DNA of 64,000 nucleotides, from positions 4,600,314 to 4,664,313 of the forward strand of contig NZ_CP036271.1 of assembly GCF_007745175.1 (NCBI RefSeq), read 5' to 3'. The position numbers and the translations under genes are program-made. This DNA comes from Caulifigura coniformis. Lineage in GTDB: Bacteria; Planctomycetota; Planctomycetia; Planctomycetales; Planctomycetaceae. Position 1 is the first letter of the stretch; each line of letters begins with the position of its first letter. Under the pieces are notes generated by a model, which saw only the letters and a list, made by a program, of their open reading frames with translations, was not told where the DNA came from and made no database searches. Positions 35,282-59,328 of the stretch are shown piece after piece.

Positions 35282-36496
35282 TCAGAAGAGGATCCGGTAC
35301 TCGACCCGGAACAGTTCCTCGTAGAACTCTTCGTTGGTGACCGGGATTCCGAATCCGGCGTAGATCGACTGGCTCTGCATCATGGCCGGTCCCCGATCGC
35401 CAAGGCCGACGCGGACGCCAGGCTTCACGTTGACGATGGTGTCGCCGTTGGCGCTTTCAGGGTCCACGCCGCCGGAGCTCGCATCGAACTTCTGACCGCC
35501 GAGGAATGTCCAGCCAACCATTTCGAGCATCGGAATGACCGACACGTCGTCGCTCTCATACAGGATGTAGCCCAGGCCGCCGCCGTAGCTCAGAACGTTG
35601 CTGGCATAGCTGTCGACGCCGATCGGGCAAAACTCGCTGAACTGGCTCTGGAGGAGCCAGTTTTCGGAGAGTCGGCGGTAGTAGAGAATCGCCGGTTCCA
35701 GGCTGACGTGGTTGGTTCCCAGGCCTTCGCGTGAATCGCCGGTCGGAATGTAGGTTTTGAACTGGAACGTCAGGTACTCATCTTCTTCCGCGATGAAGGC
35801 GTACTTGAAGCCGGCCGTCATGTCGGCGAAGCCGTTCGAACTTCCCAGTGCGGGAAGCCCGGGGAGCGATGTGTAATCGACGAATCGAACGGGCAGTTCC
35901 GTGAACAGCGAGAACTTCGGATTGAACGCGTATTCGAAGTACGCGCGGACTTCCTGGTAGTCGACGCTCGTGTTCAGGCCGATCGGGCCCGCCGCGTCGG
36001 GATCTGCGCCAATCTGCCTGAAGCAGCCGCACTTCGCATAGAAGTACTCGCCGCGATCCGGGAACGGGTTGTCGTTCGCGATATCGTACCGCAGGCGAAA
36101 CATCGTGACGGGCGCGGCCGGATCGAGATAACCACCCGCCATCATCGAGGCGGCCACCAGGTTCTCACCGCCGAGGGCCCCCTGCCCTGCGGACAGCGAG
36201 CCGACATTTCCGGGAGAGAAAACGGAGTCGGGAGTCGCCATCGGCTGGGGCATCGAAGCCGCAGGTCCGGGCGTCATCGTGCCGTACGGAGACGTCGCAC
36301 CGGGCGTCTGCAGGCAGTTCGCCGGCGGGCATCCGACCGTGCACGACGCCGGCTGCGCCGCCAGTTTCGAATCGAACAGTTGCTCGTCTTCCGTCAAAGC
36401 GGCGAGCCCAGGCGTCGGAGTCTGTGCGGCGGCGGGCAGCGCGCCGAACGCGATGGCCGCAGCGACGAGACTCGGTTTCCAGAAAGCGCTCTGCAT
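35282..36496 (-). CDS. Outer-membrane barrel-like protein, paralog of upstream neighbour
   Basis: The start ATG 36496 has AAGGA 7 bp upstream, giving 404 residues beginning MQSAFWKPSLVAAAIAFGALPAAA, a signal peptide. An acidic ALTEDEQLFDSKLA motif, a Cys-Pro segment (SCTVGCPPANCLQTPG), a Met/Pro-rich linker, SLSAGQGALGGENLV, and a barrel-like body follow (FRLRYDIANDNPF, YQEVRAYFEYAF, YLTFQFKTYIPTGDS), ending in VEYRILF. The leader, Cys-Pro motif and AGQGA region match the protein at 33792. Both may be outer-membrane proteins whose Cys-rich leader crosses the periplasm. It has no known function. Confidence 0.8.
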   Translation of the reverse strand: MQSAFWKPSLVAAAIAFGALPAAAQTPTPGLAALTEDEQLFDSKLAAQPASCTVGCPPANCLQTPGATSPYGTMTPGPAASMPQPMATPDSVFSPGNVGSLSAGQGALGGENLVAASMMAGGYLDPAAPVTMFRLRYDIANDNPFPDRGEYFYAKCGCFRQIGADPDAAGPIGLNTSVDYQEVRAYFEYAFNPKFSLFTELPVRFVDYTSLPGLPALGSSNGFADMTAGFKYAFIAEEDEYLTFQFKTYIPTGDSREGLGTNHVSLEPAILYYRRLSENWLLQSQFSEFCPIGVDSYASNVLSYGGGLGYILYESDDVSVIPMLEMVGWTFLGGQKFDASSGGVDPESANGDTIVNVKPGVRVGLGDRGPAMMQSQSIYAGFGIPVTNEEFYEELFRVEYRILF

Positions 36497-36617
36497 CGTC
36501 GAATCCTTGACAGGGCCGCTCGCACATCCTGATTCAGTGACTCTTGAATTCCGCTTGCAGATCCTTAACGCCCGAACAGACACACTCGACTTTCAGCCAC
36601 CCGAAAGCTGCCACGCT

Positions 36618-38003: not shown

Positions 38004-38334
38004 GGTCTCTACCCAACGCGCGGAATGAGGACAGTGTCACTTCGCGTATCGGGAAGAAAACTTCAGAATCGTCAAAGGTTTTCAGACGGGTGTTACAGCT
38101 TGCTCAGCCTGCGGCCCTGCGACTCAGTTGTGCAGATTAGGTCGACCCGTTTCCGGCGGAAGCTGCCGGCCAATTCCGCGAATCGCCGGGTCCCCCGCTC
38201 CGCAGCTCCGCCCCAGATGGAGACCACGCCTCCCCCTGTTCGTTGAATTCCGGCCTCCGCATCAATATGACTCACGTCGACTCGCTCACTTGTTGGCAAC
38301 TTGGGCGAGGGGCAGAACTCATCGGAGGCGGCAC
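38004..38334. other. Divergent promoter region of the T6SS island
   Basis: A 331-bp gap separates the minus-strand YHS gene and the plus-strand clpV. A GGAGG at 38324-38328 serves the GTG start of clpV at 38335. The open frame continuing upstream of the GTG has no family resemblance. I see no further operator or RNA element. Confidence 0.55.
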
Positions 38335-43408: not shown

Positions 43409-43452
43409 TCGATCGTCGATTCCGTCGCCCGATCCACGTCCGAACCCGTGAA

Positions 43453-44421
43453 ATGTCCCAGTACCTGATCCTCGATGCCATTCGCGGCCCGCTTGAGGGG
43501 CAGTCATTCTCCATTCCCCTGGGGAGTTCACTGACCATCGGACGGTTGCCTGAGTGCGGCATCCCGATCACCCAGGATCCGACGGTTTCGCGGCAGCAAT
43601 GCCGGATCGAGTTTCCGGGCCCCGACGCGCAGCTCGTTCATCTCAGTGTGACGAGCGACACCCTGGTGAACCGCTCCCCCGCCACGCGCACCGAGCTGCG
43701 CGGCGGCGACACGATCGAACTCGGCACGGGTAACCTGTTCAAGGTCCGGATGGACGACTCCGCCGCGCCACCATCGCCCAGGCCAGCCGCCAGTCCCATG
43801 AAACCGGCGGGAGGCGGCCACTACACGATGACGGCCGCCAGTTGCGGGTGGTCCCTGTACCAGTTTCCAGGCGGAATTCAGACGCCGCAGCAGCTGCTCG
43901 ACCTGCTCGGAAAATCAGCGACGGTCCGCGCGATCGTCGATTTCCGGAAGACTGGCGTCCAGCCAACGGAAATCGATCCCGCCTGGGCGCCCCTCTTCTC
44001 ATGGCTTTCCGTTGACCAGCAGCTGCAGTTCTCGCCAATGATCGTCAAGTCGTCAGGAGTCTCCGCAGAGCTTTTGCAGTCGGCGTGGGGAAAAGACGCG
44101 CTGGTGAGCGTCGGTTCGACGCTCGACGACGCAGAGTTCATGGAACACTGGCAGGCGATCAGCGGCGTTGAAAACGGTCAGCCGGGAAAGGCCCTGAGCA
44201 TCTTTCACTGGCCGTCCCTGCTTCGGCTGGTTTTGACCTGCCAGCAGCCCGATCGCATGAATCCGGTGCTGTCGAAGCTGAGCTGGATTGCCGTCGAAGA
44301 TTCCGAGGCGCCCGCGCAGCTCAGCCTGTTCGCGCCTTCCACATTTTCCGACGAGCTGGGAAAGCGGGGCTTCAGCCCCAGTTCCACGTCCGCCACCGTT
44401 GTCTCCCCTGGCAAGGACTGA
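43453..44421 (+). CDS. FHA-domain protein with unknown C-terminal domain
   Basis: From ATG 43453 a 322-residue protein starts with an FHA domain: LILDAIRGPLEGQSFSI, TIGRLPECGIPI, then DPTVSRQQCRIEF, which contains the phosphothreonine-binding R and S residues. After a Pro/Ala linker, the C-terminal half (about 130-320, ASCGWSLYQFPG, LDLLGKSATVRAIVDF, LSIFHWPSLLRLVL) resembles DUF4123-type VgrG adaptors in its helical pattern, but this is uncertain. FHA proteins regulate several T6SSs through the threonine phosphorylation pathway, and a kinase lies downstream at 56803. The gene sits between vgrG and the PAAR gene, where adaptors are usual. Confidence 0.78.
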   Translation: MSQYLILDAIRGPLEGQSFSIPLGSSLTIGRLPECGIPITQDPTVSRQQCRIEFPGPDAQLVHLSVTSDTLVNRSPATRTELRGGDTIELGTGNLFKVRMDDSAAPPSPRPAASPMKPAGGGHYTMTAASCGWSLYQFPGGIQTPQQLLDLLGKSATVRAIVDFRKTGVQPTEIDPAWAPLFSWLSVDQQLQFSPMIVKSSGVSAELLQSAWGKDALVSVGSTLDDAEFMEHWQAISGVENGQPGKALSIFHWPSLLRLVLTCQQPDRMNPVLSKLSWIAVEDSEAPAQLSLFAPSTFSDELGKRGFSPSSTSATVVSPGKD

Positions 44422-44866: not shown

Positions 44867-47800
44867 ATGAACGCCGGAAAGCCACCTTCGCGCGATTGGC
44901 GAGCCCAGCCTCCAGCGCAGTCGGCCTATGCACGTGAGTGGCGAGGTGGCTCCGGCGAATCGAAATCCGGCCTGTCGAAAACCATGCGCGTCCGCCTGCT
45001 GGTGGTCGGCATCGTGGCCGTTGTCGCCGTCATCGGCCTCCTGCTTGCACCCATCGCCGATCGCGTCCCTCAAACACAAATTGTCGCCTTCGGCATCGGC
45101 TCCTATGGCGGTCGTGCCACGCCGACCGGCAACATGCCGGTCAACCCGTTCGGAAAGCGGGATGCCCAGGCGTTCGACAGCCTCGCCGAACAGTTCCCCG
45201 ATCAGTTCCTGCCTGTCCGGCAGGAAGACAATGCACTCAGCGGCGCCCAGCTGCTCAGTTTTCTCGAACAGGAAGCACAGTCACCCGCGGTCGCAGGCCG
45301 CAACCTGATCGTGTTCTGCACGCTCCACGCACTGGTGCAGCCCTCGGGCGGCATCGAGCTGTTCGCGATTGATGCGACGCCCGATAGCCCCAGTTCCACC
45401 GGCGGCGCCATGGTCCCGCTCGACGATCTGGTCGAGCGGCTGCAGAGGAGTGTCGCCCGGCATGTCCTTCTCGCTCTCGATGTTTCGCGGCTGCAAAGCA
45501 ACTGGCGGTCCGGAATCCTCACGAACGACGTCGTCGCGCAGGCGCAGTCCGCCGCGAACTCATCGACGTCGTCCACGCAGACGCCGGTGGCCATCCTGCT
45601 GGCGGCCTCACCCGGCCAGGCCAGCTGGCCGGCCGACATGCAGTCCGCGTTCGTGACGGCGCTGGTCGCAGGCCTCTCTGGTGAAGCCGACGGGGCCGTC
45701 GATGGCGGCTCACCCACTGCGAAGGGCGCGCAGGATCGCCGGGTGACGCTGCACGAACTTGCGGCGTTTGCCCGCACCCGCGTGGCGGCCCAGGTCTCCA
45801 CACAGTTCGGCGCGCCGCAAACGGTCCAGTTAATAAAAGACACGACCGACTACCCGTTGGCCGTCGTGAATCCCCCCCGGCCTGCCCGTCCGGCCCCTTC
45901 CAAAGATCAGGCCAGCCCCGCAAAGCCTCCCGAGGCGACTGTCGCCACGACAAAGCCCGCAGCCGACGGCGACACGGAGCCGGGGAAAGCTCCCCCTCCC
46001 ACTCCCCCCAAGCCCAGGCCGTTTGACTGGCAGGCGCGGCTCGCCGAAATGCGCGCCGCACGGGATGCCCTTCAGGAGAGCGGTCGGATCTCGGTCCTCC
46101 GCTCCCGGATGCCGTTTGCGTGGCGCGCGCTCGATGCGCAGCTCGAACTGGCCGAATCTTTGATCCAGGGAGGCCAGGCCGACCTCGCCCCCGATGTGGT
46201 TCAACGAGCCGATCTCCTCGAAAAGTCGCTCCTCGCGGGAAGCGCCACCTCGGCGGCCGACCTGGACGCCGCGCGTCGGGCTCTCGGATTCAGTCCCTCC
46301 AACGCGCCGCCTTCGCGCGAAGCGCTGGCCGCGGCCGCGAAATACCTGCAGAGTCTCGTCACGGCCCCCCCGCCGATGCCTGGCGTCGCCCCCCCTCCCG
46401 TGCTCCCGGCCGATCAGGTTCCGGACGCGTGGACGATCCAGACCTGGCTTCGTCAGCAGCTGCTCGCCGACCCGGGAAGTCGGGCGTGGCCGGAGTTGCG
46501 AAAGATCGTCTCGAAACTGGATGAGATCGGCGGCCTGCCGCCGACGGTGGAGGCGATGCTCGTCCGGAACGCGGTCCAGATGGACAACGCAGAAGCGCGG
46601 CTGGCGGCCGGGAATTCGCTCTCACGGCTCTTCACCCTCCGGGATCGCGCCCGGCGACTGGCCGTCGAGCGCACCACCGCCCTGCCACTCATACAGGACG
46701 ACATCGCCTCGGTGCTCCATGCTCTGACGGCTGCCGAGCGCTGGATGCTGATCGTCGGCAGCGAGCGTCCTGAAACGACGCAATGGCTCGACCAGGCCGA
46801 ATCGACACTGACCCGCTGTGAATCGATGGGACGGCAGTACGTCCAGACGCTCGCCGACTGGAACGACCTCCTGATCGAGCTTCCCGACTACGCGGCCTGG
46901 GTCGCATCGAGGGCGGGCGACGACCCGCGACGCGACCTCTCCGTGGAAAGCCTCAGAACCGTGGCCAGCATATGGGCCGATTCCGAGCGGAACAGGCAAT
47001 GGGACGTTTCCTCGGTGGTCAGTCCGTGGCCCGACCGCCCGTCCCGCTGGACCGATCTCGAACGCAAGCTCCTCACGCTTTTCGTCGATGTCCAACGACT
47101 GAAACAGGCGCTGTTTCCGTCTGGCAATCGACCCGCCACGACCTCCGATGGTTCGTTCGGTTATCTCCTGTCCGAGATTGCCCTGCACCGCCGCGACTTC
47201 CAGGAGGAACTCTCCCGGGCCATTCCGCGGCTGGGAACGGCGGACAAGCCCACGCCGCAGGTCAAGCAGGACGCCCGCCGCCTGCTCGGATACGCCTGGC
47301 TGTCCAGTTCCGACCGCAAGCCGCTGGAAGCCCTGACAAAGCTGACTCCGCAGGGCGACGGCCTCGCCAGTCGCGATGTTGACAGGGACGGCGTCTGGCA
47401 GGGCTTCTGGGCCATCGCCGCCATGAGCCTGCTCTCACAGGATCCCGAGGACACGTCCCAGCTCTGGAAAGACTGGGATCGCCTGGCCGAGTTGTCGGGC
47501 AAGGCTGCGGGAACGAAGGGAGATGCCGAGCAGCTGGCATCCATCCGCCGCCGGGCCGAGCTGGGACGGTCGGTGCGCCTCACCTGGCGGAAGCTGCAGG
47601 ATCGCGCAGGCGCCGTCAGAACTGATCAGCCAGCCTCAAAATGGGCCCTCATCGCCGCCACGCTCGATCCGACGGTCATCCCGGAAACCGATCCGGATCA
47701 GCGGCTGCTCGCCGAGGAATCGCGGCAGCTCAATGCCTGGCTCACTCTGTTCGCGTCCGACTGGAACCAGCGCCGCTGGAATACCCGCTTTGCCGGGACC

Positions 47801-50020
47801 GGCGCACAAACGCCGCCAACCGCGATGTGGGAACTGGCCGGCGCGACGCTTCCCGGCACGCCCCCGGTGGCTCCGACGCTCAACGAGATTCCGCCGCCGA
47901 AGTTCAATCCGGCCCGTGAAGGCACGCTCGAGATCTCGGCAGCCGCTCGAGGCAACCTGCCGACGCGGCTGTACCTCACCGGCAACCGCATTCGCCTGCG
48001 CGACGCTCCCGGTCAGAACCTCGCTGCCCAGGCCGTTGCGCGGCCCGCTGCCGCCGATGGCAAATGGGTCGTCGACCTGCTGCTCGATGCGGAGGTCGAT
48101 GTCGCCCAGGACCTGCTTGTCGTTCTGGCGGATGACGAGGGGTTCCCCGTCGACTTCCGCCAGGTTCCACTGAGCCCGCCGTTCGATCCCAATGCCTGGC
48201 GCGTGGAACTCGTGGAACCAAAGACAGGCGTGCCGCTGCAGGCCTCGCCGACGACGAACCCGAAGGGGTTGAAAGTCTTCCTGCCGCCTAACGGGGAAAT
48301 TGCCTTCAAAGCCGAACTCATTCGCCCCGTCAAAGAGAATACTCCGTCTGCAAGGCTGACGATCTTCCAGGTCGGCGAGTCGGGGCGCGCACCGATTGCG
48401 GAGAACATCGAGCTCAAGCTCGAAGCGGGTCAGGAGCGGACGACGATCGTCACTGATCTCCCTCCGCCCCCTCCTCCGGCCGCCGCGGGCGAGGCCAAGA
48501 ATGCAGAGGCCCTTCCAGGTCCACTCGCCAACCTGGCGCTCGGTTGGGTCTTCGAGATCACCCCCGAAGGGCAGCAACCGATCGAGTTTGTGATTCGGCC
48601 GACGTTCTGGTCGGCGACGAAATTCGTCAACACTCCGCAGCCGGAGCTGCGGGACGATCGATTCGTGGCGGTCATCGAACGCGCCCCCGCAGCGAAGGAC
48701 GACCTGCTGATTCCGGACAAGATTCCCGTCGAGATGCGGCTCCCTGCGTCGCTGCAGAATATCGTCACCGACTTCACGCTCGGCGGGCCGCTGGGAGCGG
48801 GACAGACGATGACCCTCTCGTTCAAGCTGCCTCCCGAGTGGCGTGACAGGGCCCGCCAGAACACGTGGGACATCGTCCTTGACGTCGCCGGGATCCCCCA
48901 CGCCTACCGCTGGCGGCTCGATGCGTCAGGAACGCTCCCGCTCATCGGCGGGCAACCTCCGCAGGTAAATCCGCGCCTGCTCCTGGCGACGGAACCGAAG
49001 GCGCCGCCCCGGCTGGCCCCCATCGTCCGACGAGGCCAGGAACCGCTCCACCTGCTCTTCGAAGTCGACGCGGCGACGCTCGATCGAACGGAAGGAAACG
49101 GCGACTGGACGCTCTCCTACAAGGTCGTGCGGGAAACGGATGATGGAGTCGAAGCGACTCCCCTGCAGCATTCCTGGCGACTGTTTTCCTCGCTCAACCG
49201 GCACGTCTATCTGAACGGCGTTCAACGAGGCGTGTGGAAGGTCACCACCGCCGCCAACGACTACGAAACGATCGAGCCGGCCTCGGAAATCCGCGGTCTG
49301 GCCGGGCGGTTCCGCCTCAACGCGCAGCTCACGCAGGCGGACGATCCTCAGACTCCCGTCGCCTCGGCGGCGCTCCGGTTCGCCGTCGACGACGATCAGC
49401 CGCCCGACCTCGCCGTCAAAGGCCTGACCACCGATGCCCGCCTGATTACGCTCGATCTGCCATTCCGCATCGAATCGACCGATCTCGAATCTGGAATCGA
49501 AAAGCTGGCCTACGGATTTGACGCCAACGCCGACAAGATCCTGCAGCCGGAGGAAATCTACGAAAACCGCGCGCTCATTGGCTTCGATAACCCGACGGTC
49601 GCCTGGCCAGTCGTCGTTCCGAAATCCCGGCTGCCGAAGCTCGAGAAGGACGAAGAGACCCGGCGGCTGCTGGTCCAGGCAACGAATTCGGCCGGCATCG
49701 TGACGGCCAGGGACTTCAACGTCACGTTCAAAAAGCCGGTGGTTGTGGTCCCGGTGAAGGCGACAAAAGGCAAACTGGTCGTCAACCTGCAGATCTCCCG
49801 CGGCGGAAAGGCAACCGTCCAGATCACCGGGCCTGACGCGCGGCTTGAACAGGTTTCCGGCGAGAGCATCACCTTCAGCGATCTCTCTCCCGGGCAGTAC
49901 CAGATCTCGGTCAACGTCAACTACGCGGTCATCGGGCGGAAAGAAAAAGGCGAAGCGAAAGTCGACGTGAAAGCCGGCCAGACGACCACGGCGGCGGTTC
50001 CATTGTCGCAGGCGAAATAG
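44867..50020 (+). CDS. Giant membrane protein 1: inactive caspase-like head, helical stalk, beta domains
   Basis: The start ATG 44867 has GGAAG 9 bp upstream and gives 1717 residues. One helix (about 41-62) is followed by a caspase-like fold (about 70-310): the strand IVFCTLHALV retains a His, but the position of the catalytic Cys reads LALDVSRLQ, with Ser instead. A Pro-rich linker (about 340-390) leads into helical regions, then several Ig-like or beta domains, ending PVVVVPVKATKGKLVVNLQ and KVDVKAGQTTT. The region around WQGFWAIAAMSLL matches one in the protein at 51767, so they are paralogs. It precedes the TssM-like gene by 55 bp. I infer a cell-envelope component replacing the usual TssM periplasmic part. 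Confidence 0.75.
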   Translation: MNAGKPPSRDWRAQPPAQSAYAREWRGGSGESKSGLSKTMRVRLLVVGIVAVVAVIGLLLAPIADRVPQTQIVAFGIGSYGGRATPTGNMPVNPFGKRDAQAFDSLAEQFPDQFLPVRQEDNALSGAQLLSFLEQEAQSPAVAGRNLIVFCTLHALVQPSGGIELFAIDATPDSPSSTGGAMVPLDDLVERLQRSVARHVLLALDVSRLQSNWRSGILTNDVVAQAQSAANSSTSSTQTPVAILLAASPGQASWPADMQSAFVTALVAGLSGEADGAVDGGSPTAKGAQDRRVTLHELAAFARTRVAAQVSTQFGAPQTVQLIKDTTDYPLAVVNPPRPARPAPSKDQASPAKPPEATVATTKPAADGDTEPGKAPPPTPPKPRPFDWQARLAEMRAARDALQESGRISVLRSRMPFAWRALDAQLELAESLIQGGQADLAPDVVQRADLLEKSLLAGSATSAADLDAARRALGFSPSNAPPSREALAAAAKYLQSLVTAPPPMPGVAPPPVLPADQVPDAWTIQTWLRQQLLADPGSRAWPELRKIVSKLDEIGGLPPTVEAMLVRNAVQMDNAEARLAAGNSLSRLFTLRDRARRLAVERTTALPLIQDDIASVLHALTAAERWMLIVGSERPETTQWLDQAESTLTRCESMGRQYVQTLADWNDLLIELPDYAAWVASRAGDDPRRDLSVESLRTVASIWADSERNRQWDVSSVVSPWPDRPSRWTDLERKLLTLFVDVQRLKQALFPSGNRPATTSDGSFGYLLSEIALHRRDFQEELSRAIPRLGTADKPTPQVKQDARRLLGYAWLSSSDRKPLEALTKLTPQGDGLASRDVDRDGVWQGFWAIAAMSLLSQDPEDTSQLWKDWDRLAELSGKAAGTKGDAEQLASIRRRAELGRSVRLTWRKLQDRAGAVRTDQPASKWALIAATLDPTVIPETDPDQRLLAEESRQLNAWLTLFASDWNQRRWNTRFAGTGAQTPPTAMWELAGATLPGTPPVAPTLNEIPPPKFNPAREGTLEISAAARGNLPTRLYLTGNRIRLRDAPGQNLAAQAVARPAAADGKWVVDLLLDAEVDVAQDLLVVLADDEGFPVDFRQVPLSPPFDPNAWRVELVEPKTGVPLQASPTTNPKGLKVFLPPNGEIAFKAELIRPVKENTPSARLTIFQVGESGRAPIAENIELKLEAGQERTTIVTDLPPPPPPAAAGEAKNAEALPGPLANLALGWVFEITPEGQQPIEFVIRPTFWSATKFVNTPQPELRDDRFVAVIERAPAAKDDLLIPDKIPVEMRLPASLQNIVTDFTLGGPLGAGQTMTLSFKLPPEWRDRARQNTWDIVLDVAGIPHAYRWRLDASGTLPLIGGQPPQVNPRLLLATEPKAPPRLAPIVRRGQEPLHLLFEVDAATLDRTEGNGDWTLSYKVVRETDDGVEATPLQHSWRLFSSLNRHVYLNGVQRGVWKVTTAANDYETIEPASEIRGLAGRFRLNAQLTQADDPQTPVASAALRFAVDDDQPPDLAVKGLTTDARLITLDLPFRIESTDLESGIEKLAYGFDANADKILQPEEIYENRALIGFDNPTVAWPVVVPKSRLPKLEKDEETRRLLVQATNSAGIVTARDFNVTFKKPVVVVPVKATKGKLVVNLQISRGGKATVQITGPDARLEQVSGESITFSDLSPGQYQISVNVNYAVIGRKEKGEAKVDVKAGQTTTAAVPLSQAK

Positions 50021-50075
50021 ACAGGGGAGTGAGCGTGAGGGACGATCATTTGGCTCGGGTGGGAGGCGGTCGGGC

Positions 50076-51746
50076 ATGTCGCTGATGCGGTTGATGAGCT
50101 TTTCGCGAACGCTGAACGCCGCTCACAACGTCGTGCGGGGGATGCTCCGCTGGCTGGGCCTGATTTTCGGCATTATCCCGCGCGGCGGACGCGTCTCGCC
50201 CGCGCTCTATCGCGGCATTCACTACGCGATCATCATCGCGGTCACCGTCGTCCTCGCGATCTACAGCCCGCGACTCGTCCCCGAGTCACGCGTCCCGATC
50301 TCCAACTGGTTCGTACAGCGGTTCTACGTCGCGATCCAGTTCCTCTTGTTTTATCTCTTCGTCCGGTTGCTGATCGCCGCGATCCAGTTGCTGCTCGCGA
50401 AGGATGTCTCCGAATTCGAAGACATCGATCGCGCCTGGGAAGCAGGCCTCGACGCCCTGGCCCGTGAAGGCTTCGACCTTCACTGGCTCCCCGTGTTCCT
50501 CGTCGCCGGAACCACGCCCCAGCAGCGCAAGAGCCTCTTCGAAAGCACGCGGATGCAGTGGAAGGTCACTCCGTCCGACGACCCCGCCGCCGCGGCCCTG
50601 TCCTTCTACGCCTGCGACGAAGCCGTCTTCATCTGCCTCGACGATGTGGGCGCCATGTCCCGCCAGTTGAGCAAGCCCGCGATCAGTCGGGCCGTCCAGA
50701 CGGGATCGACGACCTCCGACTATGGCCCGCAGGCGACGCTTCGTCCCGGCGCCATCCAGGCCGCCGCCCAGCAGACGCGCCGCCCCGAACAACTCCAGAC
50801 CGGCGACAAAACTCTCGCGCCCGGTGCCATCCAGCAGGCCGCGGCCGGAGCCACGATGTCGCCCCCCCGGGCCGCGCGATTCGGCGAAACGATCCGGCCC
50901 GGCGAAGTTGCCTCGGCCGTTGCATCCACCGCAGTCCGGCCCGTCCCCCTGGAAAAGCTCAGCCAGGAAGAACTGCGCCTCGCGCGCCGCCGGGTCAGCC
51001 ACTTCTGTTCGCGCCTCACGGCCGACCGCAGCCCGTACTGCCCGGTCAACGGCCTGCTCTATGTCCTTCCCATCCGCTGGACTCAGAGTCAGTCGCACGA
51101 GCCGCTTTTCGCCTCCGCCGCCGAAGACGTCCAGACACTCCACCTGCAATTGCACCAGCAGTTCCCGGTTGTCTGCCTGCATGCCGGCCTGGAAGACCTC
51201 ACCGGTCTGACGCAGTTCATCGAACGCGGACGCGAACTCGATTCCCGGTTCAAAGACTCCCGGGCCGGCTCCCGTTTCCCGGCCGGCCTTCGCGTCGATG
51301 ACAAGTCGACCGACTGGGTGGTCGACCGCGGCATCACCTGGTTTCGTGACTGGGTCTATGCCGAGTTCGCCAAACAGTTGGCCAATCCCACAAACCGTCA
51401 GCTGTATCAATTCCTCTGCACACTCACCGAACGCCGCGCCCGGCTGTCACGCGAACTCAGAACCGTCATGGGCGAATTGCGGCTCTCCCAGCCGGTTCGG
51501 CTCAGCGGATATTACTTTGCGGCGACGGGCGACGAGGCGGCCCGGCAGGGGTTTGTGCATGGCGTCATGCAGCGTCTGATGAGTGAACAGAACGACGTCG
51601 CCTGGTCGCAAGAATGGCGTTCAAGGAACCGACGTGCGGCCGCAGTCACCTTCTGCCTGCTGGTCGTCACGCTGGCCGTGCTGGCCGGCGATGCTTACCT
51701 CGGCTGGCGGATCTGGCAGCATGCCGCATCGGCGATGCGCGGATAG
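50076..51746 (+). CDS. Short TssM-like (IcmF) protein lacking P-loop
   Basis: The 556-residue protein has two N-terminal helices (about 49-66 and 82-108) and one near the end (about 525-545). Its middle resembles the TssM cytoplasmic domain: HWLPVFLVAG (the Walker A position reads GTTPQQRKS at 145-153, so no P-loop), FYACDEAVFICLDDVG (the switch region), PVNGLLYVLPIRW (323-), FPVVCLHAGLEDLTGL, and RLSGYYFAATGDE before the last helix. Normal TssM is over 1100 residues with a large periplasmic part; here it stops after the third helix. The Pro/Gln/Ala-rich insertion (about 230-300) is unusual. It lies between the two giant proteins. Confidence 0.78.
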   Translation: MSLMRLMSFSRTLNAAHNVVRGMLRWLGLIFGIIPRGGRVSPALYRGIHYAIIIAVTVVLAIYSPRLVPESRVPISNWFVQRFYVAIQFLLFYLFVRLLIAAIQLLLAKDVSEFEDIDRAWEAGLDALAREGFDLHWLPVFLVAGTTPQQRKSLFESTRMQWKVTPSDDPAAAALSFYACDEAVFICLDDVGAMSRQLSKPAISRAVQTGSTTSDYGPQATLRPGAIQAAAQQTRRPEQLQTGDKTLAPGAIQQAAAGATMSPPRAARFGETIRPGEVASAVASTAVRPVPLEKLSQEELRLARRRVSHFCSRLTADRSPYCPVNGLLYVLPIRWTQSQSHEPLFASAAEDVQTLHLQLHQQFPVVCLHAGLEDLTGLTQFIERGRELDSRFKDSRAGSRFPAGLRVDDKSTDWVVDRGITWFRDWVYAEFAKQLANPTNRQLYQFLCTLTERRARLSRELRTVMGELRLSQPVRLSGYYFAATGDEAARQGFVHGVMQRLMSEQNDVAWSQEWRSRNRRAAAVTFCLLVVTLAVLAGDAYLGWRIWQHAASAMRG

Positions 51747-51766
51747 CTCACGGAGAATCGATCGAC

Positions 51767-54700
51767 ATGGCGTCTGGTGCAGGTCCATCGTGGCGCGGAT
51801 CGGAGCCGACTCCTGGCCGCGGCAACGCACAATCCTGGCGACGCCCAGGCACGCCGGCGGCATCGGCCGCCTGGCCCGTCCGGGGGCGCTGGATTCGTGC
51901 CGTCGGTGGCCTGATCTCCACTGCCATCGCCATCGCCGCAATTGCAACGTTCATCTTTCTCGTCTTCGTCCCCGGCTGCTCAGAGACGCAGTTCGCCGTC
52001 CTGGCCCCCGCGCCTTACAACAACGCCGCCCTGCCCCCCTCCCCCTTCTCACAGCAGGATCGTGAAGCGTTTCGGGCCGACCTCAATGCCGCCAGCCTCC
52101 CCGAGCAGCTCTCTCCCTCTTCCTCCGCCGACGCAGCCTCCTCCTCGAAGCAGGGGCCGCTGTTCATCTATGTCTCGGCCATGGCCGGGCGGACGGGCTC
52201 GGGGGTCGTCCTGTACACGATGGATTCCGGTCCGGACGACGCAGACGGGACGATCCCCATTGAACACTTGTGGAAGTATCTCGCGGCCACGCCGGCGGAA
52301 CGGAAAAAAATCGTCGCGATCGACATCGCCCGCGGACCGGTCGACGAACGCTGGGGACTGTTCATCAGACCGACCGTCGGCGTCCCGGATGGTTCCGGAA
52401 GCCTCCAGCTCACTGAAGAGGCCGCCGCGATCCCCAACCTCGCGGTCATCACGTCCGCGGCCCCGGGCGAGCTCAGCTGGTCGAGTCCCGCGTTTGCCCG
52501 GTCCGTCTTTGCACAGTTCCTAGTCCGCGCGCTGAAGGGCGATGCCGATGGCGCGGCGGGTGAGCCGCGCGACTACCGCGTCAGCCTCGAAGAAGTCCAC
52601 GCCTTCCTCCTGAAGCATGTCAATCACTGGGTGCTTCAGAATCGCGACACGCGAGGGCAGCACCCCCTGCTCCTGTTCTCAAAGCAGGCCGATTCACTGA
52701 AGAAAACCGTGCTGTTTGAAGTTCATGGCCGCCCGACCCCGACCGGCGACGACGTGGCCCGTCAGGTGGACGGCGCCCTGCTGAAGCGTCTCGAGGCTCT
52801 GTGGGATGCGCGCGACCAATGGGCCCCGCGGACTCCGGCGCAGAACACCCCGCTGGAGTGGCAGAAGTTCCATGAGCACCTCCGCCGCGCCGAGCAATGG
52901 CGACTCGCCGGGCAGCTGGAAGGCATGACTCCCCATCTCGATGAAGCCGAATCGGCGCTGCGTGACCTGACGGCCGCAGCGTCAAGGAACCCCGCCGCAG
53001 GGCTGCCTCCGTTCCTCGCCGCCGGTCTCTCTCGCCGCGGAACGTTCGCCCCCTCGGTCACCGATCCGCCGCTTCCGGAAGTGCAGCTCGAAGCGGCCCT
53101 GAAATCCCAGGCGCCGCAACCGGTGTCAGGAGACGCCCGCGCCGCGGCCGTCGCGCTGAGGGCCAGCGCGGAACAGGCCGCCTGGCAAACCTATCGCGCC
53201 GGCCTGTGGACGGGCGGACTTCTGCCCGCCGCCGATCGCGACCGCCGCATTGCGGAAGACCTGCTGTTCGTTGGGAATGCCGCCGACCTCGACCGTGCCC
53301 GGCTGCTGCGCGGCTCCGCCAGCGAGCGTCTCGACGCCCATTCAGAAATTGTGCGCGAGCTTTCAACCGCCCACGCTCTCCACTCCCGGCTCCTCTCGGA
53401 GCTTCCCGCGCTCGCCGCCTGGGCGGCGGAGCGCATGCCCGTCGAAAGCCTGGCATCGAAATCGACAGAGTCCCGCCGCGCCCGCCTGATGAACGATTAC
53501 GCCCAGGGCATTGATGAGTCGCGGTTCCGCCCCCCGTCTCTGTCCGACCAGCGACGCCTTCCTGATTCTTCGGACGACGCCAGCCTGCAGCAGACCGAGA
53601 CCGACCTCCTCCTCCTGTTCGAACAGACGCGCCAACTGGGCCGCCTGCTTGACCGCGAACTCGCGGCCAACTCCGATTTCGCCAGCGACCAGGGTTGGAA
53701 ATCCGAGCTTCAGACACTCCGGCAGCAGCTGACGGATCCCGATCGCGGCCTCGATGGTCTCCAGGCGCGCCTTCTTCGCCACGCGAAAGGCCTCATCGGG
53801 GCGACCGTGACCGACCTCCCGGGCGGTACAAGCACCGGCGCCGGGCAGCCACAGTATTTCCACTGGCTCCGGTTACGAAACGCCCTCCAGTGGAACGGCC
53901 TCCCCGCAGACCTCCGCCGATCGCTGTTCACCGATCTCGAACAGAGCGACCGGACCCTGCACGTCAATTCGCAGAAGGTCCCCGTCGGAGAACCCACCCC
54001 CTGGAACGGGGATGACTGGACCGGCGTCGATGGCTGCTGGCGGTCACTCTGGGCCCTGCAGACCGTCTCACTGGGTCTCGCAGATGCCTCAATGCACGAG
54101 CACTGGGTCGACTGGAAAAACGCCGTCGTTGATCCGGCCAAGCAGATCAACCTGCTGGTCAACCTCGGGCAGTCGGTCCGCCAGGAGTATCGCCAGCGTG
54201 TCGAACGGGCCCAGCCCAGCCTGGCAAACGCCGCAAGCTTGAAGGAGGCCGAAGGCATCCTCCTCGCGGCCGTTCGTGCGGAACGAACGTTCCACGGCGA
54301 CGATGCCGTTCTTTTGACCGGAGAACGCGACCCTCTGCGAAGCCTCCAGCGATTCGACCTCGCGGCAACCTGCCTCGAACAGGCAGGACGTTATGCCGAC
54401 GACTTCTGGGGCACTGATGGCGAAAAGAACCGCGAACCCTGGTTTGCACTGGCCTCGGGCCAATGCCTGCAGGCGGCCGGTCGCCTGTCGGAATCCCTGG
54501 CCGTACCGGCGCTGGCAACGGCCCGCGCGGAGGCCGCCCAGCGCCTGGAAAACCGTCGGCTCGGAAAGCTCGAGCTCGCGCTGCCATCAGAGAAAGTCGA
54601 CCTGACCCTCACGAGCCAGCGCCCGACCTCCGTCACCGTCGAGCGCAACGACAAGGTCCCTCCCGGCGTGGCAGCAGTCTGGCTCATCTCCGATCCCGCC

Positions 54701-56581
54701 ACGGGCCTCGACGCCGTTCCCCCCACACGACTGGGCGTCGAACAATCCCCCGCCACGACCGACTGGACCATCCGCAAGCAGCAGGCGATTCCCTCGGGCC
54801 CCTGCGGCGATGTGGCCATGCGTCCCAGGCTCTATTTCCGTGGACGATTCTGGGATCACGAAGAACAGCTCCTGCGGATCAATCCCTGTCCGCCCGACTC
54901 GCTCGATTTCGAGTACCTGCCGCACGCTCCCACGGGGCAGGTCGTCGTCTTCGGAGCGGATCGGCGCGACACCATTTTCATTCTCGATTGCTCGCTCAGC
55001 ATGGCGGATCCGATGGATCCGAAGAACAAGCAGGGGGAAACGAGGTTCCAGGCGGCCCGCAAGGCGCTGAGCGATGCGCTGCGGGTGCTCCGCGACAGCC
55101 CGACCGTCGGTGAGCAGCGCGACCCGTATGTCGTCGGCCTCATGGCCTACGGACATCGCGCCCGTACGAAGGGGGGCGACTACCTGAAAACCGAAACGAA
55201 CCCCGACTGGAAGTCCGCGATTCCAGCCGCCGTCAGCGACGACTGGCGCAATGATTTCGAGCTGCTCACCTCCCCCTCGCGCCTGGTGGACGACCGTTAC
55301 CAGCAGATGATCCAGCAGATCGGGACGCTTCAGCCCTATGGACAGACCCCGCTTCTGGGCGCGATCAGCTTTGCGTCAAGAACTCTCCTCGAGCGTCAAC
55401 GCGGCGGCGTGGTCGTGGCCATCACCGACGGGGCCTACAACGACGAGAAACGCGAAGGCCCTCGATTCAAGGCCCTGCAGGACCTGCTCCAGAATCATCC
55501 GGAACTCTCCCTGCACGTTGTGGCATTTGGCGTCGAACAGAAGCTCGAACTCGACCTGCTGACTGACCTCGCCACGAAAACCCAGGGGCAGTTCTACTCC
55601 GCGCCGACCGGCGGTGATCTCGCGCGGACCATCGGAACCGTGATGAAGCCCCGGCAGTACTCCCTCGCCCGCAGCGTCGAGCCGCGCGAAGAACAGTTCG
55701 CCGATCTGGGGAGCCCCATCGTGAATCGCCCTCCGCGATCATACGAAGTGCGGTTCCCCGGGCTGGCGAGTTCCACGGTCACCCTCTACGGCGGCGAACA
55801 GCTCCAGTTTGATCTCGATTTCGTCTCCAGCCAGCTTCGTCCGCGCCGCCCTCCGCTGCTCCTGTTCCGCAGGGCTGCGAACTCGGAAACCTTCGCTCCA
55901 ACCGAACCGACGCGCTTCGGCTACCTGCGGGCCGACTACGACGGCGCCCGAAAGGTCGCCACACTGGAACTCGGCATGGACCGGGACGACCTTCTGGGCG
56001 CGATCGACCGTCCTGCCGAAATCCGGCTCGACATCGTCTCCCGCGCCGCGCGTCAGAACACCTCCCGCTCGTGGAAGCTCTCTCCCGACCGATCGATTCC
56101 GGCCTGGCAGGTCGAACTGAAAGCCTGGGAGGCCGACGCCCAGCCCGAGATCCAGGCGATCTGGAAAATGACGCGGACTCCCCCCGATCAGCAGGTCCCC
56201 TTCTCCAAGCTGATCGGTGGTCCCCAGCAGCTGAGCCTCCCGGGTTGGCCCGAGAAAGCCCTGGTCGCCGTGGCGGAACGTCAGCCGGGCAAGGTGCTGG
56301 TTCGACTTCAGGCTGACCGCCAGGCCGCGACGGGCGACGTCGCCGGCGTGCGCGTGGAACTGGGACGTGAATCCATGGTGGAAAAGGTCTTTCTCCCCAT
56401 GGCGCTTCCCTGGCGGAGCAGGCTCTTCGAAACCGAGCGGCAGATCACCTACGAGTTCGACGTGGGAGATGGCGATCTCGACGACCTGCGGATTTCGTTC
56501 ACGTCGTCGGATTCGCTCGATCGAGACGCCCGGCGGCTGCAGACCCCGCTCGTGATCGAGAAATGGGACCGCGAGCTGTGA
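51767..56581 (+). CDS. Giant membrane protein 2: inactive caspase-like head, helical region, vWA domain
   Basis: The start ATG 51767 has GGAG at 51752-51755, giving 1604 residues. A single helix (about 43-69) precedes a caspase-like fold (about 75-330) that lacks the catalytic pair: FIYVSAMAG has Met instead of His, and IVAIDIARG has Ala instead of Cys. Helical segments follow, including WRSLWALQTVSLGLAD, shared with giant protein 1. A von Willebrand A domain (about 1066-1290) carries the MIDAS motif D1074-C-S-L-S (DxSxS), with GVVVAITDGAYND and VVAFGVEQ. The end is beta-rich. It starts 20 bp after the TssM-like gene and is inferred to be a periplasmic or surface T6SS component binding a ligand or partner through metal. 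Confidence 0.8.
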   Translation: MASGAGPSWRGSEPTPGRGNAQSWRRPGTPAASAAWPVRGRWIRAVGGLISTAIAIAAIATFIFLVFVPGCSETQFAVLAPAPYNNAALPPSPFSQQDREAFRADLNAASLPEQLSPSSSADAASSSKQGPLFIYVSAMAGRTGSGVVLYTMDSGPDDADGTIPIEHLWKYLAATPAERKKIVAIDIARGPVDERWGLFIRPTVGVPDGSGSLQLTEEAAAIPNLAVITSAAPGELSWSSPAFARSVFAQFLVRALKGDADGAAGEPRDYRVSLEEVHAFLLKHVNHWVLQNRDTRGQHPLLLFSKQADSLKKTVLFEVHGRPTPTGDDVARQVDGALLKRLEALWDARDQWAPRTPAQNTPLEWQKFHEHLRRAEQWRLAGQLEGMTPHLDEAESALRDLTAAASRNPAAGLPPFLAAGLSRRGTFAPSVTDPPLPEVQLEAALKSQAPQPVSGDARAAAVALRASAEQAAWQTYRAGLWTGGLLPAADRDRRIAEDLLFVGNAADLDRARLLRGSASERLDAHSEIVRELSTAHALHSRLLSELPALAAWAAERMPVESLASKSTESRRARLMNDYAQGIDESRFRPPSLSDQRRLPDSSDDASLQQTETDLLLLFEQTRQLGRLLDRELAANSDFASDQGWKSELQTLRQQLTDPDRGLDGLQARLLRHAKGLIGATVTDLPGGTSTGAGQPQYFHWLRLRNALQWNGLPADLRRSLFTDLEQSDRTLHVNSQKVPVGEPTPWNGDDWTGVDGCWRSLWALQTVSLGLADASMHEHWVDWKNAVVDPAKQINLLVNLGQSVRQEYRQRVERAQPSLANAASLKEAEGILLAAVRAERTFHGDDAVLLTGERDPLRSLQRFDLAATCLEQAGRYADDFWGTDGEKNREPWFALASGQCLQAAGRLSESLAVPALATARAEAAQRLENRRLGKLELALPSEKVDLTLTSQRPTSVTVERNDKVPPGVAAVWLISDPATGLDAVPPTRLGVEQSPATTDWTIRKQQAIPSGPCGDVAMRPRLYFRGRFWDHEEQLLRINPCPPDSLDFEYLPHAPTGQVVVFGADRRDTIFILDCSLSMADPMDPKNKQGETRFQAARKALSDALRVLRDSPTVGEQRDPYVVGLMAYGHRARTKGGDYLKTETNPDWKSAIPAAVSDDWRNDFELLTSPSRLVDDRYQQMIQQIGTLQPYGQTPLLGAISFASRTLLERQRGGVVVAITDGAYNDEKREGPRFKALQDLLQNHPELSLHVVAFGVEQKLELDLLTDLATKTQGQFYSAPTGGDLARTIGTVMKPRQYSLARSVEPREEQFADLGSPIVNRPPRSYEVRFPGLASSTVTLYGGEQLQFDLDFVSSQLRPRRPPLLLFRRAANSETFAPTEPTRFGYLRADYDGARKVATLELGMDRDDLLGAIDRPAEIRLDIVSRAARQNTSRSWKLSPDRSIPAWQVELKAWEADAQPEIQAIWKMTRTPPDQQVPFSKLIGGPQQLSLPGWPEKALVAVAERQPGKVLVRLQADRQAATGDVAGVRVELGRESMVEKVFLPMALPWRSRLFETERQITYEFDVGDGDLDDLRISFTSSDSLDRDARRLQTPLVIEKWDREL

Positions 56582-56802
56582 GCCTCGAATAAGCCGCTAC
56601 TTCGCTCGTGTAACACTTCACACGTCCGTACGCCTGGAACGACATGTTCCAGCCGCCTCATCAGCAGCTCGTCGCATCGCCCGCCTGCTCCAGAGGGCGA
56701 TCCCCCGCACGCCTCACCCGCTGGGAAAGCGACAGCGGCGGTGACGCAAAGCGGCTTTTGAATCAGAAGGTGAGCCCTGTATCATCGACCGAGGGTGGAC
56801 GA

Positions 56803-59328
56803 ATGATCCGCTCTCGCCCGTGGCCGTCTGCAGCCTCGACCGCGGCCTCCTGGTCCTCAACTCCAGAATTTGACGCCGATCTCATGACCACCGGCGAGCT
56901 GAATGCTGATGACCTTGAAGGACTGGTCGGCCGCGAGCTCGACGGACGTTACCTCCTCGACCAGTTCATCGACCGTGGCGGCTTCGGGGTCGTCTACCGC
57001 GGTATCGACAAGAAGTTCAACAGCTCTGTCGCTGTCAAAGTCGGGCTCTCCTATCGGGAGTTCATGAAAGAGGCGAAGCTCGCCGCCGAGGTCCGGCACG
57101 ACAACATCGTCCAGGTCAGCGACTACGGCAACGATCACGGTCTCGCGTACCTGGTGATGGAGTTCCTGCAGGGCGACGACCTCGAAAAACTGTTCAAGGA
57201 GCAGGGACACCGGCTCACGAACGAGCAGTTGCGGAAGCTGGTGGCCGAGGTTGGCGACGCGCTGTCCCACGCCCATTCCGACCAGTTGATTCACCGCGAC
57301 CTGAAGCCCCGCAATATCATCCTGAAAACCAGCCGGAACCGCACCGGGTCGTCGTCCCATCCGGCCCGGTTCGTCCTGCTCGATTTCGGAATCGCCGCCA
57401 AGCTCGATGCCAAGGGAACCCAGCGCAACCGCACGCAGGATGGAGCGGGCACCGTGGAGTACATGGCGCCCGAACTTCTGCGAACCTCCCCCGTCGCCAC
57501 GGTCGCCTCCGATATCTACGCCTTCGGCGTCATCCTCTACCAGATGATGACCGGCCGCGTTCCCTTTCAGCAGTGCGACAATTCGCACATGGCGCTGGCG
57601 GAATGCCTGAATGCAATCGCCCATCAGCTCCCGGCCCCGTTCTCGGAAGTCGCCCCCGACCGCAAATACCCCGCGGCCGCGGAAGCGGTCGTCATGCAGT
57701 GCCTCGAAAAGGAAGCGGCGAAGCGTCCCGCGACCATGTCCGAGGTGCGCGACCAGTTCCTGAGAGCGATGGAGCCGGCCCCGGCGGCCGCCTCGTCCCG
57801 GCCCCGCGATCTGTCGCAGACGCTTCGCCCGGGCGAACTGGACGACACCGCCCCCACGCCCGATCAGAGGCTCGATTCCTGGAATCCTGAACGGCAGCGG
57901 TCGTCCGGTGGAACGCGCTGGCCGTGGATCGTTGCCGCGCTCGCACTCCTCGCAGTGGCCGTGTTCGGACTCACGCGTCCGGGTCAGCCCTCCCTCACCT
58001 TCGAGACCACTTCGACGTTGTCGTCCGTCAAGGGAGCGGAAATCGCCCCTCTCGACGGTCAGCCGCTGGAACTCGTCGCCGGCGAACGGTTGACCGTCGC
58101 CTTCGAAGTCCTCGATGTGCCCCGCGACGCGACGCTGAAATTTGATGTGCCCGAGGCCCCCGCAGGAGTCGTCGTGAAGGAAGAGGCCGCAACCGGATCG
58201 TCGCGGACGTACTCCATCGTCATTGACGATCCGAACCAGGGCCCGGCGCCCCCTCTCGCAGTGGTCTTCAAGGCGACCGCATCCCATCTGTCCAACCCGT
58301 TCGAACAGCGGCTCGAGCTCAACCCCCTCCGTCCAAAGGCCTGGCTTCCCGATTCCCTTCGCAGCCTGGGCTACCGGGAAGCCTCCGATTCGCGGCTCTG
58401 CCGGATTGGAAACGAAGTCTTCTCCACCGTTCTCGAGCGGCGCGTCGGCGCGGAAACCGTTCGGATGCTGCTCGTTCCCGAAACGGAAATCAACGACCGT
58501 CGCATCCGGACCTTCTACGTCATGGAGCGGCTCGTTTCCAAAGCCCAGTTCCAGGCGTTCGCCGCTGCAACGCCCGACTACCAGCTGGCAAGCCGATCGA
58601 CTGACGAGAGGAAATGGGAGTCCGGACCGGAAGGCCCGGTGACCGATATCTACGTCCTCGAGGCGCAGCGGTTCGCTCGCTGGCTCGCCGGCCCGTCAGG
58701 GTCGCTCCCCGCCACCTCCGAATGGGAGCTCGCGGCAGGCTACTACGCCTTCCAGCAGCTGCTGGAAGCCCGCGGCGAACTCACTCCCGACGCCATTCAG
58801 CAGATCACGCGAATGCGGAGGACCGATCCGCTGCTCGGTGCGGAGTCGTGGGTCGGGAAAGGCCCCTCGCTCGGCGAGTTCAATCCCGCGCAAGGCTCCT
58901 CCTGCAAAGGGTGCTCTCCCTATGGACTGAAGTTCGACAGGCTCGCCAGCGGCACGCTGCCGGCCGAAATGACGTCGACCCTCGTCAGCTTCACGTCCGC
59001 CGAAGCCGACCTCAAGGCCCTGAACCGGAATGACGTTCCCAGAGCAACGGACAAGGCGCTCCGCGACGGTCTCTACTCGGCCCGTCTGAGAGGTTTCCCC
59101 ATGATGGGCGAATCCCCCGAAGAGCTGTGGGTCAAGAACGTCTCCGGCGGCCAGGCCCTGCGATCCCAGGAAGATCTCGACGGCATCGGAACACTCGTCC
59201 TGCTCCCCGAGCACGGAATCGGATTCGATTCCTACATCGGCTTCCGGGTCGTCATCTCCACGGAAGGAGCCGGCTCCGCAACGGCCTCCCGCGAATTCTC
59301 CGCCGGCCGGAATTTTGTCCGCAATTGA
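56803..59328 (+). CDS. Ser/Thr protein kinase fused to formylglycine-generating-type domain
   Basis: The start ATG 56803 has a GAGGGTGG just upstream; earlier ATGs give an Arg/Ser-rich leader with no family match. The kinase (about 49-310) has DRGGFGVVYRG, SVAVKVG, IHRDLKPRN, LLDFGIA and VEYMAPELL, all key residues present. A Pro/Asp-rich linker and one helix (about 375-394) anchor it, and the outer C-terminal part (about 520-840) resembles an FGE/SUMF1-like fold (RTFYVMERLVSKAQFQAFA, LPATSEWELAAGYY, GEFNPAQGSSCKG, IGFRVVIS). The gene follows the T6SS giants. Together with the FHA protein it suggests a PpkA-type phosphorylation switch for secretion; the outer domain could be a sensor. Confidence 0.9.
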   Translation: MIRSRPWPSAASTAASWSSTPEFDADLMTTGELNADDLEGLVGRELDGRYLLDQFIDRGGFGVVYRGIDKKFNSSVAVKVGLSYREFMKEAKLAAEVRHDNIVQVSDYGNDHGLAYLVMEFLQGDDLEKLFKEQGHRLTNEQLRKLVAEVGDALSHAHSDQLIHRDLKPRNIILKTSRNRTGSSSHPARFVLLDFGIAAKLDAKGTQRNRTQDGAGTVEYMAPELLRTSPVATVASDIYAFGVILYQMMTGRVPFQQCDNSHMALAECLNAIAHQLPAPFSEVAPDRKYPAAAEAVVMQCLEKEAAKRPATMSEVRDQFLRAMEPAPAAASSRPRDLSQTLRPGELDDTAPTPDQRLDSWNPERQRSSGGTRWPWIVAALALLAVAVFGLTRPGQPSLTFETTSTLSSVKGAEIAPLDGQPLELVAGERLTVAFEVLDVPRDATLKFDVPEAPAGVVVKEEAATGSSRTYSIVIDDPNQGPAPPLAVVFKATASHLSNPFEQRLELNPLRPKAWLPDSLRSLGYREASDSRLCRIGNEVFSTVLERRVGAETVRMLLVPETEINDRRIRTFYVMERLVSKAQFQAFAAATPDYQLASRSTDERKWESGPEGPVTDIYVLEAQRFARWLAGPSGSLPATSEWELAAGYYAFQQLLEARGELTPDAIQQITRMRRTDPLLGAESWVGKGPSLGEFNPAQGSSCKGCSPYGLKFDRLASGTLPAEMTSTLVSFTSAEADLKALNRNDVPRATDKALRDGLYSARLRGFPMMGESPEELWVKNVSGGQALRSQEDLDGIGTLVLLPEHGIGFDSYIGFRVVISTEGAGSATASREFSAGRNFVRN

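Follow-up and report, generated by a model that had tools for sequence, protein, structure and literature searches.

The window analyzed here is a stretch of 64,000 nucleotides from the planctomycete Caulifigura coniformis (RefSeq assembly GCF_007745175.1, contig NZ_CP036271.1, positions 4,600,314 to 4,664,313 of the forward strand), a member of the class Planctomycetia whose 6.76-Mb genome is a single contig. One type VI secretion system (T6SS) is encoded from 31.6 kb of the window to about 13 kb past its end. At window positions 44867-56581, two giant proteins, here called giants A and B, flank a truncated TssM-like protein. A first-pass annotation, made from the letters alone, had described this arrangement; its coordinates proved right and the open reading frames (ORFs) were confirmed. 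All three genes lie on the + strand, between the gene of an FHA-domain protein and that of a kinase, and are separated from each other and from the kinase gene by gaps of 55, 20, and 62 nt. The second gap is counted to the likely start of giant B, which was placed at 51767 because its homologs begin there. The T6SS-wide gene set is present, with TssK, TssL, a ClpV-like ATPase, and VgrG encoded in the window and TssA, TssB, TssC, TssE, TssF, TssG, and Hcp beyond its end. By its sheath, tube, baseplate, spike, and ClpV genes, the region is thus a T6SS as a whole. The features discussed below are collected in Table 1.

Table 1. The giants, the short TssM, and neighboring T6SS genes (window coordinates)
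Feature	Position	Strand	Evidence
Giant A, 1717 aa	44867..50020	+	
Giant A tail with its two Trp-Arg motifs, RDWR (residue 11) and REWR (residue 25)	44897..44941	+	
Giant A membrane helix, residues 39-64	44981..45058	+	model helix 4-29
Giant A predicted caspase-fold head, residues 65-335; Cys position Ser, His kept	45059..45871	+	VIA Z 19.1
Short TssM, 556 aa	50076..51746	+	PF14331 E 6e-11
Giant B, about 1604 aa	51767..56581 (ORF 51614-56581)	+	
Giant B tail with its two Trp-Arg motifs, PSWR and QSWR	51791..51838	+	
Giant B membrane helix, ORF residues 90-118	51881..51967	+	model helix 3-31
Giant B predicted caspase-fold head (ORF residues 120-372), with Ala in place of the Cys and Met in place of the His	51971..52729	+	VIA Z 18.1
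Giant B VWA domain region, DxSxS metal-site motif (FILDCSLS)	54974..55603, limits approximate	+	PF13519 E 2.2e-9
TssL (DotU)	31580..32239	-	PF09850 E 2.2e-15
TssK	32243..33658	-	PF05936 E 1e-64
Outer-membrane barrel-like protein	35282..36583	-	PF13557 E 3.1e-5; elsewhere, homologs close to giants or TssK
Cys-rich HEAT protein with a signal peptide but no lipobox; two YHS stretches at the C terminus	36618..38003	-	PF04945 E 2.2e-13
ClpV (TssH), named by context; ClpB-type AAA ATPase	38128..41019	+	AAA_2 E 1.5e-54, ClpB_D2-small
VgrG (TssI)	41153..43408	+	PF05954 E 1.7e-74
FHA-domain protein	43405..44421	+	PF00498 E 1.2e-9
Ser/Thr kinase + transmembrane helix + FGE-sulfatase domain, PpkA/TagR-like fusion	56644..59328	+	PF00069 E 3.8e-49, PF03781 E 4.3e-9

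Architecture of the giants

Giant A is ordered as a basic tail, one transmembrane (TM) helix, a caspase-fold head, a long helical block, and a beta-rich C-terminal region, and giant B follows the same plan with an additional VWA domain, the only domain that Pfam recognizes in the pair. As annotated, each protein has a single hydrophobic helix, near its N terminus. AlphaFold2 models built from 18-row alignments predicted a helix, an alpha/beta head, and a long helical block including a helix of roughly 50 residues; giant A was modelled as helical and then beta. Related giants are mostly 1460-1900 aa long, and Pfam matched VWA_2 in 5 and carboxypeptidase-regulatory-like domains in 6 of 16 full-length giants. 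No NCBIfam match above the cut-off was obtained for either window giant or for TssM, and searches of the PDB sequences with the giant and TssM profiles returned weak matches only (best E, 0.0011, to beta domains, and 0.14, respectively). At loci L102 to L109, which belong to one family, the second giant is about 870-970 aa long and is mostly followed by another large ORF, as if it had been split.

The two giants were then compared with each other using hhalign. Their heads, taken as single sequences, aligned with a probability of 94.7 (E, 5.8e-8), and profiles of their families (5 and 6 relatives) aligned with a probability of 100 (E, 2.4e-42) over 823 columns, which begin at the first residue, take in the tail, and reach about residue 990. 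This supports homology, and at the level of sequence giants A and B are paralogous over about 990 residues. The helical block that the annotation had proposed as shared (WQGFW/WRSLW) also aligns between the giants, WQGFWAIAAMSLL (giant A, residue 844) and WRSLWALQTVSLG (giant B, ORF residue 809) sharing one column. A FastTree phylogeny of the giants placed the two window proteins near each other with mixed support, and it does not settle whether a single ancient duplication gave rise to every pair.

In the predicted models, both giant heads are caspase folds. The head of giant A was superimposed on caspases with an rmsd of 2.9 over 210 aligned residues and that of giant B with an rmsd of 3.2 over 200 (Z scores in Table 1), and the 50 matches listed for each head were caspases, MALT1, and metacaspases, joined for giant B by the Geobacter protein GSU0716. 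Foldseek gave a probability of 1.00 for both, with a best E value of 5.5e-5 for giant A and of 2.0e-3 for giant B, for which no match fell below 0.001. The caspase-like domain suggested for each giant is thus borne out, and the two heads have both a common fold and sequence homology.

The caspase Cys column is occupied by Ser in giant A (LDVSRL) and by Ala in giant B (IDIARG), and the His column by His in giant A (CTLHAL, with loss of the next Gly) and by Met in giant B, in agreement with the annotated replacement of the Cys in both proteins and loss of the His in one. Measured against caspases of clan CD, family C14, the window pair therefore has the fold and lacks the His-Cys catalytic dyad. 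Among 92 giants, the His is kept in 53, the Cys in 8, and both in 7 (at loci L069, L092, L102, L103, L108, L112, and L113); at least 83 of the 92 heads have no Cys in the catalytic column. Not all heads are dead, since those seven keep both residues at the catalytic columns. In three of them, the first giant carries a caspase His (TGHG) and Cys (DSC), at L069:7861-12786, L112:2686-7695, and L113:6917-11929, and these first giants may be putative active proteases. Altogether, the heads look like disarmed, and occasionally intact, caspases.

The tail on the 5' side of the membrane helix is basic and carries a short motif of the type [S/D]-W-[R/K/Q]. The motif counts exclude duplicates, giants shorter than 800 aa, and those whose start was cut off, and one of the 92 giants had no TM window. 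W[RKQ] was found in 82 of the 91 remaining tails, in two or more copies in 34 of them, compared to a mean of 14.4 in segments of equal length drawn 500 times from elsewhere in the same proteins (maximum, 26) and a mean of 33.8 in shuffled tails (maximum, 46). The narrower W[RK] was present in 71 of the 91. Furthermore, when 16 full-length giants were aligned, only three columns were invariant, and W25 of giant A is one of them. The Trp-Arg tail looks like a candidate docking motif. According to the positive-inside rule, the basic flank of a membrane helix lies on the cytoplasmic side; by this rule, the basic tails would be cytoplasmic and the heads outside.

A minimal TssM and canonical parts not detected

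The TssM encoded between the giants has two N-terminal helices, a cytoplasmic IcmF-N domain (PF14331, IcmF-related_N), and a third hydrophobic helix that ends 10 residues before the C terminus. By its sequence, it has almost nothing outside the inner membrane. No nucleotide-binding loop of the canonical motif was visible in the aligned TssM homologs. A scan of public genomes yielded 39 TssM loci, one from Holophagae and 38 others (36 from the planctomycete group and 2 labelled just "bacterium"), and the TssM frame was recovered in 37 of these 38, including both of the latter. In all 37, TssM ends 0-19 residues past its last helix; the Holophagae homolog has 839 additional residues. The stop after the third helix, already noted in the annotation, is thus common to the related loci. 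Because of this, and because no homopolymer of 6 or more was found in window positions 51500-51770, the truncation is no sequencing accident. At two loci, TssM is split into two genes on opposite strands, one encoding a two-helix part of 202 aa and the other a part of 521-605 aa (L047:5971-10750 and L049:6239-11008).

A full-length TssM elsewhere in the genome would have spoken against a role of the giants in its place, and none was found. Indeed, a six-frame search of the window's genome gave no match to the TssM periplasmic domain (PF06761), and the sole PF14331 match was the short TssM gene. The TssJ lipoprotein (PF12790) likewise had no match in the window's genome, the extent of this search, in which a diverged TssJ could lie below the cut-off. 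Escherichia coli was positive as a control for both families. Compared to the canonical T6SS-i complex TssJ-TssL-TssM, the system thus has TssL and the N-terminal membrane and cytoplasmic module of TssM, alongside complete sets of tail and baseplate genes; it differs in that TssM lacks the periplasmic domain, TssJ was not found in the window's genome, and a pair of giants is present instead.

Distribution and neighborhood of the giants

Co-occurrence was analyzed in an even sample of 294 genomes of the phylum and in 382 genomes of the class Planctomycetia, with PF05943 as the marker of the sheath gene. A match to the window TssM was found in nine phylum genomes, one of them weak (G045), and the eight with a clear short TssM are the same eight that have two full-length giants. 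The best giant E value was 1.2e-42 or lower in each of these, and the next genome followed at 4.1e-30. The sheath was present in 67 of the 294 genomes and PF06761 in 36 (35 above the cut-off). None of the eight giant-bearing genomes had PF06761, compared to 35 of the other 59 sheath-positive genomes. The TssM N-terminal domain occurs in 21 of the 24 sheath-positive genomes that lack both PF06761 and the giant pair, in frames of 663-1683 aa (18 at 1181-1683 aa and 3 at 663-880 aa). The frame lengths and PF06761 counts therefore indicate that the other sampled classes mostly keep a long TssM and that Planctomycetia combine a short TssM with giants.

In the class sample, 143 of the 382 genomes carry the sheath gene. 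At E ≤1e-28, the giant profile matched 126 of these 143 and 10 of the 239 sheath-negative genomes, a strongly positive co-occurrence (Fisher P, 1.4e-68, a value that ignores kinship and is not readable as a probability). The corresponding counts were 136 versus 39 at 1e-20, 130 versus 19 at 1e-25, 123 versus 8 at 1e-30, 108 versus 7 at 1e-35, and 91 versus 5 at 1e-40; generic caspases probably enter at E ≤1e-20. PF06761 was absent from all 31 giant-bearing class genomes searched and, with the phylum set, from all 39. Giants therefore accompany the loss of the TssM periplasmic domain.

Two simpler views of the giants were discarded at this point. Their presence as chance neighbors was rejected by the co-occurrence with the sheath. 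As for the view that they belong to a generic family of caspases, a further 91 genomes of the phylum match more weakly (best E, 4.1e-30 versus 1.2e-42 or lower). Nine weaker-match loci of these 91 genomes were examined, and eight gave a scored ORF, none with the TM-head-helical plan and the tail motif (one had a chance WK in its putative signal).

We then looked at the surroundings of the giants within 20 kb or less at 45 loci selected for their giant matches. VgrG aside, a T6SS core gene was found at 29 of them (TssK at 17 and TssM at 14), a Cys-rich HEAT protein at 23, a barrel-like protein at 11, and a kinase-FGE-like match at 6. Gene orders such as giant, barrel, Cys-HEAT, giant, TssM, TssL, TssK, seen at L096 and L097, recur. 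The Cys-HEAT profile had 27 matches, including the window's own protein, and 16 lie between two giants (15 loci, as two of the 16 are one locus counted twice). By eye, a lipobox was present in 10 of 13 aligned Cys-HEAT proteins, which we had selected from the 27. Two related barrel-like proteins adjoin TssK in the window (33792-35198 and 35282-36583), and the latter has 20 profile matches in the loci analyzed, itself included, several of them near giants, TssK, or the Cys-HEAT gene.

Other features of the gene row deserve mention. The kinase-FGE protein looks as though PpkA and the FGE-like TagR were one polypeptide. The window gene row resembles the PpkA-Fha-TagR pathway in its kinase, TM helix, FGE-type domain, and FHA protein and differs from it in this fusion. 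The C terminus of the FHA protein is weakly similar, below the cut-off, to DUF4123, a T6SS adaptor family (E, 0.015 in the window and 0.0076 at L083:15078-16193). Directly 3' of the kinase lies the gene of a protein of 1782 aa that has WD40 repeats and a putative signal peptide and matches PDZ weakly (L066:4768-10116, corresponding to window positions 59455-64803), and a gene for a sigma-70-family factor is located inside the T6SS region (L066:10894-11622, window coordinates 65581-66309). One further genome (G283; L020 and L021) has a T6SS locus with two differing TssC and two differing TssF genes.

A proposed split trans-envelope complex

Taken together, these data make it probable that the giants are near-obligate envelope components of the Planctomycetia T6SS, most likely forming a split trans-envelope complex. 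Its inner-membrane base would consist of the minimal TssM (two-helix hairpin, cytoplasmic domain, and third helix) and TssL. Beside TssM, giants A and B, with one helix each, would carry the periplasmic pillar that TssM supplies elsewhere, ordered from the membrane as dead caspase head, long helical stalk, and distal beta/VWA part. Their cytoplasmic tails would dock on the base, the baseplate, or the FHA/kinase module through the repeated Trp-Arg motifs, and at the outer end, TssJ would be replaced by a Cys-rich HEAT (lipo)protein, perhaps together with a barrel in the outer membrane. The periplasmic orientation, the contacts, the pillar function, and the replacement of TssJ are what we infer. 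The proposal of the first-pass annotation that the giants may supply the missing periplasmic part of TssM is supported by the homology of the heads, the absence of a full TssM, the co-occurrence, and the loss of PF06761.

Several observations weigh against this model. At 1e-28, 17 of the 143 sheath-positive class genomes are without giants (10 match between 1e-20 and 1e-28, and 7 have no match at 1e-20), and the 10 sheath-negative genomes mentioned above do have a match. The 1e-28 line itself is not clean, as a caspase-only frame of 438 aa in the phylum sample scored 4.1e-30, and a few rows of the giant profile derive from sampled genomes, which hence match by construction. In four of the eight phylum genomes, giants are on other contigs or more than 50 kb from tssM; for the same reason, the link between giants and TssM is not mere adjacency. 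The window's own Cys-HEAT protein has no lipobox, and seven heads retain both the His and the Cys. Outside the heads, the models are of moderate to low confidence (mean pLDDT, 62 for giant A residues 36-1235 and 71 for giant B ORF residues 88-1010). Additionally, no IcmF model was among the 25 listed of the 31 Pfam families matched by the 16 full-length giants, and no TssM structure was among the fold matches listed for giant A or B; the latter says little, because caspases from the heads fill these lists.

We also considered that the giants could be envelope sensors or activators, which would form a threonine-phosphorylation trigger of the T6SS jointly with the FHA protein and the fused kinase-FGE protein. 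The VWA-bearing giant would then sense contact or damage outside and the tails would signal inside, as in the PpkA/TagQRST or TssW-PpkA-Fha axes. The window would suit such a role, since the FHA protein, the giants with TssM between them, and the kinase-FGE protein are consecutive and co-directional. Moreover, PpkA has a periplasmic domain and TssW connects the outer membrane, TssM, and PpkA (excerpted text of PMC12607579), and TagR is periplasmic and acts upstream of PpkA activation (excerpted text of PMC10482370). However, the kinase-FGE-like matches that favor this role are found at 6 of the 45 giant loci and FHA at 3, within the 20 kb covered, distant copies being uncounted. A structural part, rather than a sensor, would better explain why giants are nearly obligate in sheath-positive class genomes and why the periplasmic domain of TssM is missing, and without the pillar, these systems would have none known. 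We therefore regard a purely sensory role as unlikely.

It seems very improbable that the giants, instead of being part of the machine, travel with T6SS loci as caspase-like proteins that are secreted or located at the surface, such as effectors, adhesins, or peptidases. VWA and carboxypeptidase-regulatory-like domains are frequent in adhesins, and their occurrence in 5 and 6 of the 16 full-length giants, like the seven heads with both catalytic residues, would be in line with such a passenger. Caspase-like domains are also found in polymorphic toxins (excerpted text of PMC3482391). Nevertheless, the N-terminal membrane anchor with its conserved tail motif, the organization in pairs, the loss of the Cys from nearly all catalytic columns, and the common co-occurrence with the sheath argue against it. 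A truncation artifact, or a TssM rescued by frameshifting for which Citrobacter rodentium provides a precedent (excerpted text of PMC4256274), with the giants as incidental neighbors, has a negligible probability. We rejected the rescue because all 37 recovered frames end at the helix and no homopolymer is available, and PF06761 was absent from the six-frame genome search; in many genomes, the giants are also on the other strand or far off.

The split complex with the giants as pillars was next compared with known non-canonical systems. In the T6SS-iii of Bacteroidota, the TssN-Q-O-P-R complex consists, according to the excerpted text of PMC10781749, of separate inner-membrane proteins with a single helix each, possibly joined by a lipoprotein of the outer membrane. 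TssR_D2 has a VWA-like structure, and TssL and TssM are wholly absent. The giants are similar in being single-helix membrane proteins, and the VWA domain of giant B recalls TssR_D2. They differ in size and in their caspase heads, none of which is reported for T6SS-iii in that excerpt. By analogy, the giant complex may work like the Bacteroidota one, in which separate single-helix proteins and a possible outer-membrane lipoprotein bearing a VWA-like domain take the place of TssJLM; since TssL and the TssM N-terminal module are present, the Planctomycetia system is outside the T6SS-iii subtype. The Acinetobacter complex (TsmK, TagX, and TslA) lacks TssJ and includes TsmK, a co-opted, dead-enzyme-like ketoacyl-synthase fold (excerpted text of PMC10564176). 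It is thus a precedent for both the co-option of a dead enzyme fold and the loss of TssJ, although its TssM, according to the same excerpt, retains the periplasmic domain, with an added linker. Finally, the giant heads share their fold with caspases, the paracaspase MALT1, and bacterial caspase-like proteins, and they differ in having lost the catalytic Cys in nearly all cases and in being embedded in membrane-anchored giants.

Overall, we lean toward considering the system a distinct T6SS subtype, with a minimal TssM, two pseudo-caspase pillars, a Cys-HEAT lipoprotein as a substitute for TssJ, and Trp-Arg tail clamps, which would be near-universal in T6SS-bearing Planctomycetia and would exclude the usual periplasmic domain of TssM. 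We found no account of the T6SS membrane complex of planctomycetes in the literature searched, subscription papers and preprints being mostly outside this search. The membrane complex of this T6SS would be a non-canonical one, made of proteins whose family has no name yet. If this is true, the T6SS trans-envelope complex would have been rebuilt at least once more, with TssM cut at the membrane and the pillar moved to twin giants. Co-opted and mostly dead protease folds would form this pillar, and the system would provide, besides Bacteroidota, another natural experiment that shows which membrane-complex parts cannot be dispensed with. The giants would serve as markers to recognize T6SS across Planctomycetia. 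The planctomycete envelope is unusual, and the giants would offer a route to ask how the needle is anchored across it.

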